This document shows positions 1,161-53,071 of a stretch of 64,000 bases of DNA, piece after piece. The DNA lies in the NCBI RefSeq assembly GCF_001610875.1, contig NZ_CP011272.1, positions 973,988 to 1,037,987 on the forward strand, given 5' to 3'. Below the pieces are notes generated by a model that was not told where the DNA came from, did not search any database, and worked only from the letters and a program-made list of their open reading frames with translations. This DNA is from Pirellula sp. SH-Sr6A. GTDB taxonomy: Bacteria; Planctomycetota; Planctomycetia; Pirellulales; Pirellulaceae. The translations under genes were made by a program, and so were the position numbers. Position 1 is the first letter of the stretch. Each line of letters starts with the position of its first letter.

Positions 1161-4100
1161 TTCGTCGACTGCGTCCCTTCGCATTTCCCTGCGATTCTGG
1201 TGGTTGAAATTGATTTGGCATGTTGGGTTGCTGTTGCCCTTCCATACCTGGCTGCTGCGGAGCGCGCTGGACATCTTTCGGTCCAATCAAAGCCTTCAAC
1301 GCCCGCTCCATCGCTTCCGAATTTGTACCACCAACTTCAATCATTTGAACAGCCCCCGATGGCTGAGCCGCTTGATCCAACTCCTTGATCATCTCGATCA
1401 CCAGTTTGAGCAAATCTTCCCCTTCGGCGGACACGATAACCGAATTGGTGATGCGATCGATCCCCATCGAAAGGCGGCCCGTAAAACTGAAGTTCAATCC
1501 ACCGCTGTCGCTTACCGTTTCTGTGGATGCTTCGTGCTTGGATTCTTTGTTGCCCCCAGCCGCTTCTTTGCTGAAGGCCTTATCGTTTGTGCTGAGAAGA
1601 TCACGGTATGCGTCCTTGATCGCCTCGACAATGGAGTCCGCACGGGAATGTTCGATCCGAACCAATTTGGTAAATCGCAACTTTTGACGATTCGTTTTCT
1701 CGGGGACGTCCCAGAGCTTGATCAAGCTGCGAATGGTTTTCAATTGCTGTTCGTCGGCTCCAATCACAATGATCGAGCGGGTGTCGATGTCGCTGATGAA
1801 TCGCAGCTGCCGTTTTTTGCCGAGCTGAGGATCTTCCGTTTTGCTCTTTGGCCCGGAATCAAAACCAAAAATGAACGCGAAGGGGTTGGAGTCTTTCTCA
1901 GGTTCGTCGTCTTTAAAGTAATCCTTCAAGTTCAGCTCTACCCAGGATGGCCGGGCATTCTGGATATAGAAAACCTCATAGCGTTTGAGCGGAGGCGCAT
2001 TGGTGAGCATCATCTGTTCAAGCCGGTCGAGGGCGTCGAGATCATTGCCGGTAAGAACTAGATTACCACGCTCGTCAAATTGCATACGGATCGCTTCCGC
2101 AGGCGTGCCCGATGCTTCCGCAGGCGTGCCCGATGCATTCGAGGGCGTGCCCGATGCAGTAGTGACCTCTGACGAATTGGGCTCTTTGGAACTCGTTGCA
2201 CTCCCTTTCGGAGTCTCTCCCTCGGATTCCTGATGAATCGAGAGCCGCCCTCCCGGGATGGCATCGTTCGCGGTTCGTTGTTTCAGGGTGACATCGGCGT
2301 CTGATTTCTTGGCAGGCTTCTCTTCTGCATTGGGCTTGGCCGTCTCCTCCGCTTTTCCCGCATCTTCCGTTTTGCCTGCCCCCTCGACTTTATTCTCGAT
2401 GTTGGATTTGTCTTGGGAATTGGCTTTGCTCTGCGAGGTGGCGGACGTGGCCTCTGCCGATGTTTCCGGCGGCGTGTTGAGGGCATCCTTCTTTTCAAAC
2501 TCGGTTTCGTCGGGCAGAACAAGCGGGTTGGGAGAAACCTTCGACCAAGCTTCCTGGAGGCGTTTCAAGTACTCTTTTGTCTCGGCGGAGCGAGAAGCGT
2601 CGATGGTGCGAACCCGGCTTCTTTGCAATCCCTGGGGTGGAATCTCGCCGAGCTTCACAAGCAGCTTGTTCACTTCTTGGATTTCCACTTCGTTGGCCCA
2701 AAGCAAGAGCTGATTGTCTTGGCTATTGGCGCCGACTCGGAAGGTATCTTCGTTGGTCGGTTCTTGTTGTCGCGAGTATCCGAAGGGGTCGAAAAACATG
2801 CGGCGATTTCGATCGTCTTGTTTGGGTTCTTCTTTTCCCATCAAGAACTTAATCGTTCCCGCCACATCTTCGGCTCGCAATCGCCTCAGTTGGATGACCT
2901 CAAAGTCTCTGGCGGAACCATCGAGTCGGTCCAAGGTTTGTTGGATAATCAACTGGTCGCTCAGGGAGGCATAAGCAATGATCGCTCGATTCTTTTCGTC
3001 CACCTCCAGTTTGGTGGTGGGTTCCAATGCGTCCATCGCCATGATCGACGTGACGAATTGTTTTGGGTCCAGACTCATGAGCCGGTAGATCTTCATCCGC
3101 GTCTCGATGCTCTGGAGGCTGGCGGAATTTTCGTTTGGCACATCAATTCGTCTCAGAAATGCCGCGATAACTGCCATCTTGTCCGGTGGGGCGTGTGCGA
3201 TCACGCTGTTGCGCCGCGCGTTGGCGACGACATAGATCTCGTTGCTTGCAGCGGAAGCGGGTGGTTTCCCTCCTTGTTGTTGCTGCTGCTGTTGTTGCAT
3301 CTGCATCCGCATTTGCATTTCCTGCTGCTGCATCATCAATTCTTGCGGGCTCAATCTGCCAGATGCAGCGCGATTCGTTTTGTTTTCCAATCCGAGAAAA
3401 CTAATGATCTGTTCACGCGCGTCGGCGGCACGGACAAATTCGAGTTCGAACTCGCGCGCGAGACTCTCCTGCGCTTCGTCCGACTGCTCTTCTTGAAGAA
3501 TGCGATAGATCTCGAACAGATTGCCGGCGGAGTCCATGGCCTCCAGCCGATTGGTAGAGTCGAGTGGATTCAGCGTCCCATTCGCGCTCACCAACGGTTT
3601 GAATTCGAGAGCCGCTTCCTTCGCTATCAACGTCGTCAAGGCAAACGATGTTCGAACGAACCGGTTGGGTGGTAAGGACTCAAGGGCTTCCGGTGGTACT
3701 TTTGGAACGAGCGAGACGTTGATCCCCGCAGTCTTGACGACTTGGATCATCCCGTCGAGTTCCAACATCGTGAAGCCCCGGGCTAGCAAATGACGGTTGA
3801 ATTGATCGCGCGTTTCCTCGAGCGATTGCTTCCGCTGAGTGGCGATATTGAGATAGTCGCTGGGAAGCTCTTGCCAATCGAGGGAAAGGTTTGAGGTTTC
3901 GGCCAACCATCGAAGTAAATCGGGCCAAGCCTGATTGCGAAATTGAAATTGAACCATCCCTTTCTCGTCTGGTCGAACTTCAAACTCTTTCTTGTTGGGT
4001 GGTTCGGGAGGTGTGCTGGTCCGTTTGATCGGCTCGGAGGGCCCGCCTGGCCCCTTCCCATCCGGACCTTTCCCACCCGGAGGATTCGGGCCACCAGGTG

Positions 4101-11306: not shown

Positions 11307-11573
11307 CGGAAGCGCTGGGAACTCCGCCCCACCCCGATCCCTTGAACACCGCCGCTGGCTCCGATCCTCTGCATTCCGACGCCGGCGCGGGAGCCAACCG
11401 ACGCAAGAAACGGAGAATTTCGCCCCGGAGAATGCGGCATGACGAAGGACTCACGTCGCCAGGAATATCGAAATACTAAGCAAATGAGGCTAACCGTATT
11501 TCAACCGAACATTCGATCACGAAAAATTTGAAAATTTTCAACAACCCCGATTTTCTTTTTGAGTACTCTCGCC

Positions 11574-11579
11574 TAATAT
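11574..11579 (+). promoter_or_regulatory. Candidate -10 box of the twin-hairpin RNA
   Basis: TAATAT, one mismatch from the sigma-70 consensus, placed so that transcription would begin about six bases on, at the foot of the first hairpin. The -35 side is only a T-rich stretch (TTTTCT at 11551-11556, 17-base spacer), so the promoter call rests mainly on the -10 box and its position. Confidence 0.4.
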
Positions 11580-11582
11580 ACC

Positions 11583-11697
11583 GATGTCAGTGGCAGACGG
11601 GACTCGGGCGTGACCTGTCTGACGCTGACACAACCTTGCCCCATTGTGCTTAACTGGATTTCGGGCGTGACCAGTTAGGTGCTTTGGGGCTTTTTCG
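11583..11697 (+). ncRNA. Candidate small RNA with two same-loop hairpins
   Basis: About 115 bases between the convergent TPR and PVC-dehydrogenase genes. Hairpin 1 pairs 11585-11600 with 11614-11630 (outer TGTCAG/CTGACA, inner CAGAC/GTCTG then GG/CC). Hairpin 2 pairs 11638-11657 with 11671-11690 (GCCCCA ... TAACTGG with CCAGTTA ... TTGGGGC). Both have 13-base loops whose last ten bases are identical, TCGGGCGTGA, although the stems differ. Hairpin 2 is followed by five Ts and so doubles as an intrinsic terminator on the + strand. A -10-like box lies just upstream. No open reading frame fits. Identical loops on unlike stems suggest a binding site shown twice, for a protein or a partner RNA; this is inference. 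Confidence 0.55.
11638..11695 (+). terminator. Rho-independent terminator (hairpin 2 plus T5)
   Basis: Twenty-base arms with two T-T mismatches and a few G-T pairs, a 13-base loop, then TTTTT at 11691-11695. On the minus strand no T-run follows the hairpin, so it terminates rightward transcription only: the small RNA, and perhaps read-through from the TPR gene. Confidence 0.7.
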
Positions 11698-11806
11698 TTT
11701 CTAGACCGAGAGCCCGACCTCGCACCTGAATGCGAGGGCCTTGCCTGGGCGATCCGATCGGTTCAGGCGCGGGACCGGAGCCCTGTCCCCGTTTCATCCT
11801 CCCAGC

Positions 11807-51073: not shown

Positions 51074-51137
51074 GCGGACGATAGCCGAAACACAACGTAA
51101 TCGGGTAAGGATGCCCGTTGCCGGGCACCCTCCCCAC

Positions 51138-51169
51138 ACCACCGTACGTGCGGGTCCGCATACGGCGGT
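51138..51169 (-). ncRNA. Group II intron domain V
   Basis: A 32-base hairpin: nine-base lower stem ACCGCCGTA/TACGGTGGT with one G-T pair, a two-base bulge (CG) on the 3' side, a four-base upper stem TGCG/CGCA and a small loop. The bulge, stem lengths and CGC in the 5' strand are textbook for the catalytic domain V. It abuts the stop codon of the reverse transcriptase gene (51170-51172). Confidence 0.88.
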
Positions 51170-52600
51170 TCAACGAAGATGAGCAAGCTCTGCCCATAAT
51201 GTCTTCATGCTTAAAACCCCTTGGGCCGCTAACCACGCATTCGTTAGTCCTACACCGCTCGCTATGGTCTTCGACATATGCCAAGGACCTTTACGGCTTT
51301 TACCATGTCGAATCGCTTGCCGTCGCGGGCCCCCCAGTGCAACGAGGTTTCGGATGCGCGTGCGAACTCGTCGCCAACGTTTCCAGTAACAACATCGAAT
51401 GCGCCTGCGAATCCACTGTTCCAAGCTTGCGAACAGTTTCAGTTGCGAGGCAAGGGCGAAGTAACCCATCCATCCGCGCACATAACGTGCAAGTTCTTTC
51501 AAGCGGTGCGCCATCGAAATCCCTCGGCTGCGCCCAGTGATCTCGCGAATACGATGCTTGAACTTGTGAATGGATTGGGCTGAGACGTTGATCGTGGCTC
51601 GAAGTCCCGTGAAGATAAATCCAAGGTACTCGAGTTGATCTACGGACACGATTCGGCTCTTTTCCAGGTTAACGACTAGGTGAAGCTTGCGTGTAAGATA
51701 ACGGTGTACCGATTCGAAAACCCGTTCGGCGCTCCGCTTGGATCTCGTGAAGATCACGAAGTCGTCAGTGTAGCGAACAAAGCGGAGTCCCCGTTGCTCT
51801 AGTTCCTTATCCAAGTCATCCAAGAGGATGTTTGCCAGGAGGGGAGAAGCAGGGCCACCTTGCGGTGTTCCTTCGGTTGTTGCATGAAGTTGCCCATCGA
51901 CTATCACGCCTGCTCGCAAGTAACGACCAATCAGTTGCAGCATCGCTTTGTCATGGACCTTTCTTGCCACACGAGACATGAGTAGATCATGCCCCACGCG
52001 GTCAAAGAATTTGGATAAATCCATATCCACGGCGTAACGATAGCCGCGACGAATGGTGCGTCGGACTTGCTTGGCTGCTCCGTGAGCAGAGCGTTTCGGT
52101 CGAAAGCCGAAGCTCGATTCCGAAAAGCTCGGATCGAACAACGGAGTTAGGATTTGTACTATGGCTTGTTGGATCAACCGGTCTACTAGGTTTGGGATAC
52201 CCAGTAACCGTTTGCCGCCATCGGGTTTGTCGATGGAAACTCGTCGAACCGGATTCGGTTGACAAGTGCCATCGAGAAGCTGTTGTCGAATGGCATGCCA
52301 ACGGGGACGAAACCAAGCTGGGAATTCAGTGATGGTGATCCCGTCGGGACCAGAGGCCCCGCGGTTCGCCTTCACGTTCTTCCAAGCCAGTTCGATGTTG
52401 GAGTTTTCGACTAATGCCTCCATGAGAGACATTGGGAATAAACTCAAGGCTGGTTTCTCAATGGACGCTGTCGCGGCATCATCCGTTCGGACTGTTGAAC
52501 CTGCGGTCTCCATGCGTACGGATTCCGGTAAACTCGGATCTCCTGGCATGGAGTGGTTCCCTCGCGGCAAGTCGATTGATGGCTCTTCCTTGTTCTTCAT
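51170..52600 (-). CDS. ltrA: Group II intron reverse transcriptase/maturase
   Basis: 476 residues. The reverse transcriptase domain has RGASGPDGIT, the RT3-4 motif GFRPKRSAHGA, catalytic YTDD (YADD in most relatives) and GTPQGGPASPLLANI. A maturase (GIIM) domain follows (about 385-430). There is no C-terminal HNH endonuclease, so integration would use another nick, as in the endonuclease-less classes. The frame begins at ATG 52600, and upstream intron RNA shows the usual GGTGAGGGCAACTGC-like stretch. The frame is intact. Confidence 0.92.
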   Translation of the reverse strand: MKNKEEPSIDLPRGNHSMPGDPSLPESVRMETAGSTVRTDDAATASIEKPALSLFPMSLMEALVENSNIELAWKNVKANRGASGPDGITITEFPAWFRPRWHAIRQQLLDGTCQPNPVRRVSIDKPDGGKRLLGIPNLVDRLIQQAIVQILTPLFDPSFSESSFGFRPKRSAHGAAKQVRRTIRRGYRYAVDMDLSKFFDRVGHDLLMSRVARKVHDKAMLQLIGRYLRAGVIVDGQLHATTEGTPQGGPASPLLANILLDDLDKELEQRGLRFVRYTDDFVIFTRSKRSAERVFESVHRYLTRKLHLVVNLEKSRIVSVDQLEYLGFIFTGLRATINVSAQSIHKFKHRIREITGRSRGISMAHRLKELARYVRGWMGYFALASQLKLFASLEQWIRRRIRCCYWKRWRRVRTRIRNLVALGGPRRQAIRHGKSRKGPWHMSKTIASGVGLTNAWLAAQGVLSMKTLWAELAHLR

Positions 52601-53071
52601 TGTTCGGCCCTTCCTGCTTCCATTGGCGTTGGAAGGTCAGTACTACGGCCTCTGCTGACTTCTATACAGCCCGGCGCTGCTTTCGTAGCGTCGTTCCTGG
52701 CTTTCAGTCTTCGAGATGACTTACTCCCTGGAGCTGTATAGATCTCCCCGGATAAGAGCATTGGTTTCCTCTGCACAAGCTCATCCTTTACCTGATCAAC
52801 CGATAGGCATTGGGCTTCGCAATGTTGTGCTTGCTCGCCCGCTGATCCGGCCTTGTAGGATGTTTCTGTTCGTAGCCTCGCAGATTTGGTGTGAATGCAC
52901 TCGAGTGGGGAATGATGCACTGATGGCAATCGACAGACTCGATACTTACCCATACATTCGCAGGCTTCCTTCCCACGGTCGGTTGCCCTTCCGCAGTTGC
53001 CCTCACCGTGTGCTTGCACTTTCGTAGTGGTCATTTGGTATACTGATCTCCTCAAGTGTCCTATCTCGCAC

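Follow-up and report, generated by a model that had tools for sequence, protein, structure and literature searches.

Two adjacent hairpins at 11585-11690 of the window (the whole stretch of DNA that was analysed, 64,000 nucleotides) are members of a family in which nearly the same loop is carried on different stems. Comparison among the copies shows a real family, with a conserved loop, covarying stems, T-runs and many loci within the genus. Our preferred reading, to which we give about an even chance, is that of a multi-copy family of trans-acting RNAs which work through the loop, probably by pairing; transcription, an active loop, action in trans and pairing are all parts that we infer. The original prediction of a small RNA at this place is supported as far as genome comparison can tell, and it withstood the sequence-based attempts to refute it. 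The elements of the locus, all of them on the + strand, are the following:

11505..11538, + strand: CCGAACA and then an A/T-rich stretch, a possible upstream promoter element (7-mer comparison; suggestive only)
11574..11579, + strand: TAATAT, proposed -10 box (sequence)
11585..11630, + strand: hairpin 1, loop-bearing (fold; covariance model match)
11604..11613, + strand: loop core TCGGGCGTGA of hairpin 1 (exact match at G000:C1:985591-985600)
11638..11690, + strand: hairpin 2, loop-bearing, also the terminator stem (fold; covariance model match of 74.1 bits, a training-set copy)
11661..11670, + strand: loop core TCGGGCGTGA of hairpin 2 (exact match at G000:C1:985648-985657)
11691..11695, + strand: T5 run completing the intrinsic terminator (sequence; T-run kept in the aligned terminal hairpins)

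Two stable hairpins with unrelated stems and equal 13-base loops, identical in their last ten bases, had been described here, and this is what is seen directly at 11585-11630 and 11638-11690. The loop of hairpin 1 is GACTCGGGCGTGA (11601-11613) and that of hairpin 2 is ATTTCGGGCGTGA (11658-11670); both have 13 bases, end in TCGGGCGTGA and are flanked by GG and CC, and T5 comes directly after hairpin 2. The 151-base stretch 11560-11710 was folded with an energy of -59.6 kcal/mol (z -3.96), and 0 of 200 shuffled sequences were equally stable. The covariance model matched hairpin 1 with 39.1 bits and E 4.6e-7 at G000:C1:985565-985627, a copy that was itself in the training set. Loci of the window type were found in five genomes, with hairpin 1 present in three of them (G000, G026, and G011) and absent in G022 and G024, and the stem type of hairpin 2 is common to G026, G011, G022, and G024. 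Considering that the relatives keep the loop over covarying stems and that hairpin 1 of G011 has a different stem which is still paired and bears the same loop core, a recent duplication followed by decay of the stems, a possibility that had been raised against the prediction, does not account for the two loops. The prediction had also placed the hairpins in no known RNA family. Rfam 15, at gathering score, agreed in finding no family at 11585-11690 (best below-threshold match E 2.4), and at 16 related loci the Rfam matches were to tRNA only.

The genome that contains the window, G000, is a single contig of 6.53 Mb, in which there are 30 exact TCGGGCGTGA sites and 12 sites of the reversed 10-mer. 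Ten of the 30 form part of a 12-15-base loop in a hairpin at or below -24.4 kcal/mol, and the remaining 20 reach -19.1 at best; the cut-offs for loop length and energy were chosen after the values had been seen, and the gap is nonetheless clear. None of the 12 reversed sites combined both properties, the nearest ones having -23.5 (loop of 32 bases) and -21.6 (loop of 14 bases). The loop had 13 bases in six of the ten strong hairpins (range 12-15), and its first bases vary. In total, G000 has 11 hairpins at 10 places, and at one of these, 1042k, a core base is changed (GGGAG). The loop 10-mer also recurs at G000:C1 3775664, 3777536, and 3779408, opposite or inside a long ORF; since the spacing is exactly 1872 bases, this is probably a gene with long tandem repeats.

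The first copies came from a DNA search of 60 relatives, in which many genus genomes showed the loop, and the covariance model was trained on 31 of these copies. The covariance search proposed along with the original prediction returned members in 24 of the 27 genus genomes, at many unrelated places and with a best E of 7.1e-15 or lower. In 23 of these 24 genomes the best copy either belonged to the training set or had been left out of it as a duplicate, and because the model was built from the copies of the DNA search, their E-values are not independent and only confirm; G008 is the exception. Apart from G008, the copies found by the model outside the training set were those of locus b in G001, G005, G006, G007, G018, and G025, another copy in G011 and, within G000, the loci 1042k, 1533k, 4176k, 5073k, 5588k, and 6363k. 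In this model search of 27 genomes G010 gave no match, and the weak matches of G015 and G021 failed inspection. Adjacent pairs of hairpins with the same loop and different stems were present at the window locus in three genomes and at locus b in six, and the two hairpins of a pair would belong to one RNA. Most other loci have a single hairpin.

The idea that the stems differ while the loops agree was extended by the relatives, which hold the loop constant while the stem covaries. Among 56 collected hairpins (45 distinct) the mean pairwise identity was 0.89 in the loop versus 0.39 in the flanking 12+12 stem bases, the core conservation being inflated by the use of the core pattern in gathering them. 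The core CGGGCGUG(A) is nearly invariant across the family, and the 14 loop variants are all centred on CGGGCGT, once CGGGAGT. Hairpin 1 of locus b is a fairer conservation test than the core-pattern set. It was reached through hairpin 2, and it keeps CGGGCGTG in six of six genomes, three of them close kin; its stems are different in all but the three close genomes, with 5 to 7 of the first 7 positions paired. In the alignment of 31 copies, paired cells amounted to 83.3% versus 72.1% in column shuffles, doubly changed cells were 86 versus 35.2, and the covariation score was 0.408 versus 0.242; none of these values was reached in 500 shuffles, and slid partners scored 0.185 at most. Kinship among copies can raise values of this kind. 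The pairs with a double change (14 of 21, reached by 42 of 500 shuffles) and the further pair types (40, reached by 389 of 500) were not outstanding. At 1740k the closing pair passes from G-C to A-U in both genomes where this locus was found.

The searches beyond the genus, in the family and the order, used strict first filters that may lose weak copies. Among 97 genomes from other genera of the family, 19 were matched at E ≤ 1 (best 0.004), and of the loci viewed in 17 of these 19 none was accepted by eye. A borderline case among these matches is the one at about 1501-1551 of L080 (G101, another genus), a long near-perfect hairpin with ATCGGGCGTGA near the tip. Of 296 genomes drawn from the order, six were matched at E ≤ 0.01; five were of the genus, and the sixth, G163, was not accepted as a member. 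A pattern scan of 84,980 GTDB genomes, made with the commonest closing pairs, gave 57 stretches. Hairpin and T-run occurred together in 19 of these, and every one of the 19 belonged to a contig named Pirellula, Planctomycetaceae or Planctomycetota.

According to the preferred reading, each chromosomal copy would have its own promoter and one or two hairpins, the last being an intrinsic terminator. The working part would be the apical loop, with the consensus A-U-U-U-CGGGCGUGA and the first four bases variable, and the stem would hold this loop open, its own sequence being free to change. The loop would most likely serve as a GC-rich seed for pairing with target RNAs. In NfeR1 (alpha-r14) and EcpR1 the loops work in this way, and it is on account of this analogy that pairing is favoured. 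Pairing would take place without Hfq; the search for Hfq (PF17209) was negative in 27 of 27 genus genomes, and the control search matched 5 of 14 known genomes. Mobile elements with the loop may join or mimic the circuit. A search for the complement of the loop near ribosome sites had been proposed as a check, and it gave no target: in G000, where the perfect 10-base complement was searched against same-strand ORFs of at least 80 residues, none of the 20 non-hairpin sites, with TCACGCCCGA on the other strand, fell within 0-60 bases before an ORF start. The complement site of L135 is intergenic and precedes an ORF by 108 bases. Pairing of the loop with 16S or 23S rRNA was not supported, as shuffled loops paired as well or better in 25 of 60 and 39 of 60 cases.

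PMC10746234, PMC4414408, PMC2864571, and PMC9029176 were drawn on for the comparison with known systems. According to PMC10746234, alpha-r14 or NfeR1 ('cuckoo RNA') of alpha-proteobacteria is a short Hfq-independent RNA in which three hairpins have an identical loop motif and highly different stems. The likeness lies in the same loop motif on hairpins with different stems, here two adjacent ones that would form one RNA; the differences are that its loop is the anti-Shine-Dalgarno CCUCCUCCC, which does not occur in the Pirellula loop UCGGGCGUGA, that it belongs to another phylum and that the Pirellula family matches no Rfam family. NfeR1 and EcpR1 show that pairing is a possible mode of action for RNAs independent of Hfq whose loops are identical or strongly conserved. 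EcpR1 of Sinorhizobium, although alike in plan, differs in having the loop motif on one hairpin only, with a loop UCCGCCGCAUCU that is absent from the Pirellula loops. In the open-licence literature no described small RNA of this genus was found, and by title none of the papers with the string GGGCGUGA was on bacterial RNA. LhrC of Listeria has unpaired UCCC motifs. It resembles the Pirellula family as a multicopy small RNA, and differs in its C-rich motif and its host.

CsrB and RsmZ carry a repeated loop motif on unlike stems, with GGA in most hairpin loops, and GGA is the motif of CsrA. The candidate TwoAYGGAY is grouped with them by the likeness of a repeated loop motif on unlike stems, and the Pirellula family differs from this group in that GGA is not conserved. 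A CsrB/RsmZ-type RNA with a canonical CsrA site was rejected because of this lack of conservation, about half of the locus types having GGA at the loop edge. TwoAYGGAY appears as a candidate RNA in a table of PMC2864571, which also gives Rhodopirellula-1 as a candidate for Proteobacteria and Planctomycetes marked as doubtful as RNA.

The main rival to pairing, which we regard as possible on a tentative basis, is that a protein binds the loop and the RNAs act as its decoys, in the logic of CsrB and RsmZ; the protein would be a CsrA paralogue of unusual specificity or another RNA-binding protein, and the copies in mobile csrA leaders would be regulatory sites for it. csrA was found in 27 of 27 genus genomes, with 2 to 10 matches per genome, 10 of them in G000, and some divergent ones on mobile elements. 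At 1042k the hairpin adjoins a tRNA-like sequence, csrA follows about 165 bases downstream on the same strand, and a DUF3799 gene is located further on. 4176k and its near-duplicate 5073k stand directly after a tRNA-like sequence and about 95 bases before a divergent CsrA-like frame, which after 4176k was confirmed by Pfam. A pattern scan of IMG/VR for the loop gave seven stretches and among them one strong hairpin, that of contig L271, where a tRNA-like sequence, the hairpin and, about 190 bases on, csrA succeed one another; the integrase of L271 is 61% identical to the 4176k integrase and the hairpin stems differ. The neighbourhood of loop and csrA, with the hairpin on the same strand about 95-190 bases before the csrA-like gene, occurs in mobile elements of two kinds, and for one kind it was seen in two relatives that are distinct.

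Besides this neighbourhood, the decoy reading is favoured by the occurrence of one or two hairpins per RNA and by a loop length which, nearly constant despite the variable first bases, suits a protein site at least as well as pairing. Taking into account this constancy and the link to mobile csrA, a protein partner is well in play. Against it, GGA is absent from the loop edge in the hairpins of 1740k, locus b, 6363k, 5588k, 1533k, 4176k, and 5073k and in the second G011 hairpins, and the core CsrA proteins appear canonical by eye. Moreover, among 50 csrA leaders of up to 600 bases (10 from G000 and 40 from other genus genomes) only the 4176k leader contained the 10-base core, and the 1042k leader had the GGGAG variant with its hairpin. 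By our chance estimate about 5 matches of three 7-mers are expected over the 50 leaders, and the five 7-base part matches seen in four genes of the 40 other-genome leaders were taken for chance. The search by protein recovered an integrase relative (94% identical) on a contig that stops short of the hairpin, and also the element of G000 itself; at 15 further csrA loci found by protein the exact loop was absent upstream. The link between loop and csrA is confined to these mobile elements.

Two other candidates in csrA leaders were discarded: the TCACGCCC complement at G000:1276211, where CACGCCC is absent upstream of look-alike csrA genes elsewhere (likeness by eye), and GGGCGTG in the tRNA-like leaders of csrA 539942 and 4898238, not clearly above chance. 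The tRNA-like sequences beside the loop hairpin and upstream of csrA were located at L271 8548-8647, L210 1471-1564, L211 1220-1311, and L209 1070-1138, and those of L271, L210, and L211 are enlarged, with 92-100 bases. In two other viral contigs, L284 and L285, the region just upstream of csrA at 4001 has a tRNA-like sequence followed by a hairpin, and the loop that these two hairpins share contains CCGGGGTGA; the plan is similar to that of the loop family but the loop is not the same. The viral contig L296 (IMG/VR UViG 2687453341_000004), with identical integrase and loop, is the 4176k element or an identical one.

That the genus shares this loop with mobile elements, next to csrA, suggests conflict or takeover. 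In a more specific and rather improbable form of the protein-site reading, the loop would be the site of a Planctomycetes RNA-binding regulator, possibly a CsrA paralogue reading a non-GGA sequence; the host would carry decoys on one or two hairpins, and the mobile csrA leaders, beside tRNA-like sequences, would tap or rewire the host circuit.

The trans-acting RNA reading, which we prefer, calls for independent transcripts, and the chromosomal neighbourhoods bear on this point. The window copy lies about 280 bases 3' of a TPR-protein gene and faces a DUF7133/cytochrome c gene, and in G011, G022, and G024 the copy likewise has a homologue of this TPR gene (56-65% identity) before it. Copies after serS are present in 12 genomes, and a similar stem is found elsewhere in G024. 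In the 14 genus genomes without a serS copy, G024 included, there was no exact loop within 600 bases after serS, serS itself not being found in G010; three two-mismatch loop strings were located within that distance in G000 and G024. Further copies lie beside the genes of a Kup potassium transporter, a redoxin and an S1/P1 nuclease, among others, and locus b is placed between an AAA ATPase and a sigma-54 response regulator. The neighbours of the Kup-type copy of G011 differ, and the neighbour of 1740k is a 112-residue ORF that Pfam does not match and that G026 has retained.

At seven kinds of locus (Kup, locus b, redoxin, 6363k, 5588k, 1740k, and the second G011 copy) the nearest substantial upstream gene is opposite in at least some genomes. 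With this orientation the hairpin does not serve to terminate that gene, and for this reason it is probably a short transcript of its own, of roughly 60-150 bases. At locus b the opposite orientation holds in G001, G006, and G025; in G005, G007, and G018 a same-strand ORF of about 160-220 residues intervenes, and the about 230-270 bases from its end to the terminal hairpin contain a T-run stretch. In G008 (redoxin locus) and G000 (Kup locus), short unsupported same-strand ORFs of 94 and 103 residues are also found upstream.

We consider it unlikely that the hairpins are no more than intrinsic terminators of the ordinary type, in which the loop would be conserved solely for the sake of termination or RNA stability and would have no role in trans. 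A T-run does close the terminal hairpins outside the csrA-linked copies, and 438k and 1533k start about 20 bases after a DUF1580 gene and a gene read as tyrosine recombinase (no Pfam match); but the copies before mobile csrA have no T-run, hairpin 1 at the window locus and at locus b is not a terminator, only about 10 places of a 6.5 Mb genome are concerned, and at several kinds of locus the upstream gene is opposite, as mentioned.

The signals for an RNA with its own promoter and terminator are unequal, the stem and T-run being present and the promoter being argued by comparison and layout only. The reading of hairpin 2 plus T5 as a terminator holds in that stem and T5 are read directly, but the terminator scan does not list it because it permits loops of at most 8 bases. 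As for the proposed box before hairpin 1, the TAATAT sequence is there, but the consensus scan gave no sigma-70 promoter at it and the upstream promoter score was no better than that of shuffled sequence (p 0.365). Near this position G026 has TACTAT and G011 an A/T-rich TTAATATTAT. Only 5 of 46 upstream regions scored p ≤ 0.05 by consensus sigma-70 (vs mononucleotide shuffles), and as these scores are mostly weak the RNA lengths given here are predictions.

The motif [GC]CGAACA was found 128-157 bases 5' of the hairpin in 11 of 12 scannable serS-type loci, 161 bases 5' in two of five Kup-type loci and 72-73 bases 5' in two of three window-type loci. In the window the 7-mer alone occurs 36 times on both strands, and once with a GAAAATTT-like sequence behind it. 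The serS-type copies have a conserved upstream spacing, read by eye, of GTGNCN, about 18 bases and TANANT, which points to a length of about 150 bases for these RNAs; at 1740k, 5588k, and 6363k, where promoter-like elements stand immediately before the hairpin, a length of about 60 bases is suggested.

A role at the level of DNA, for instance as a folded recombination site of mobile elements, is very improbable for the hairpin; the copies near integrase-like genes in mobile elements would speak for it, but not the T-runs on one strand, the conserved upstream stretches, the stems without shared sequence or the fact that no recombinase was recognised next to most chromosomal copies.

As a family present in nearly every sampled species of the genus, with a loop that can be tested by few mutations, the candidate trans-acting RNAs would offer a direct entry to RNA regulation in Planctomycetes. 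In another part of the window, at 51100-52887 on the - strand, a group II intron was observed, with Rfam matches to its D1-D4 parts and its catalytic part.
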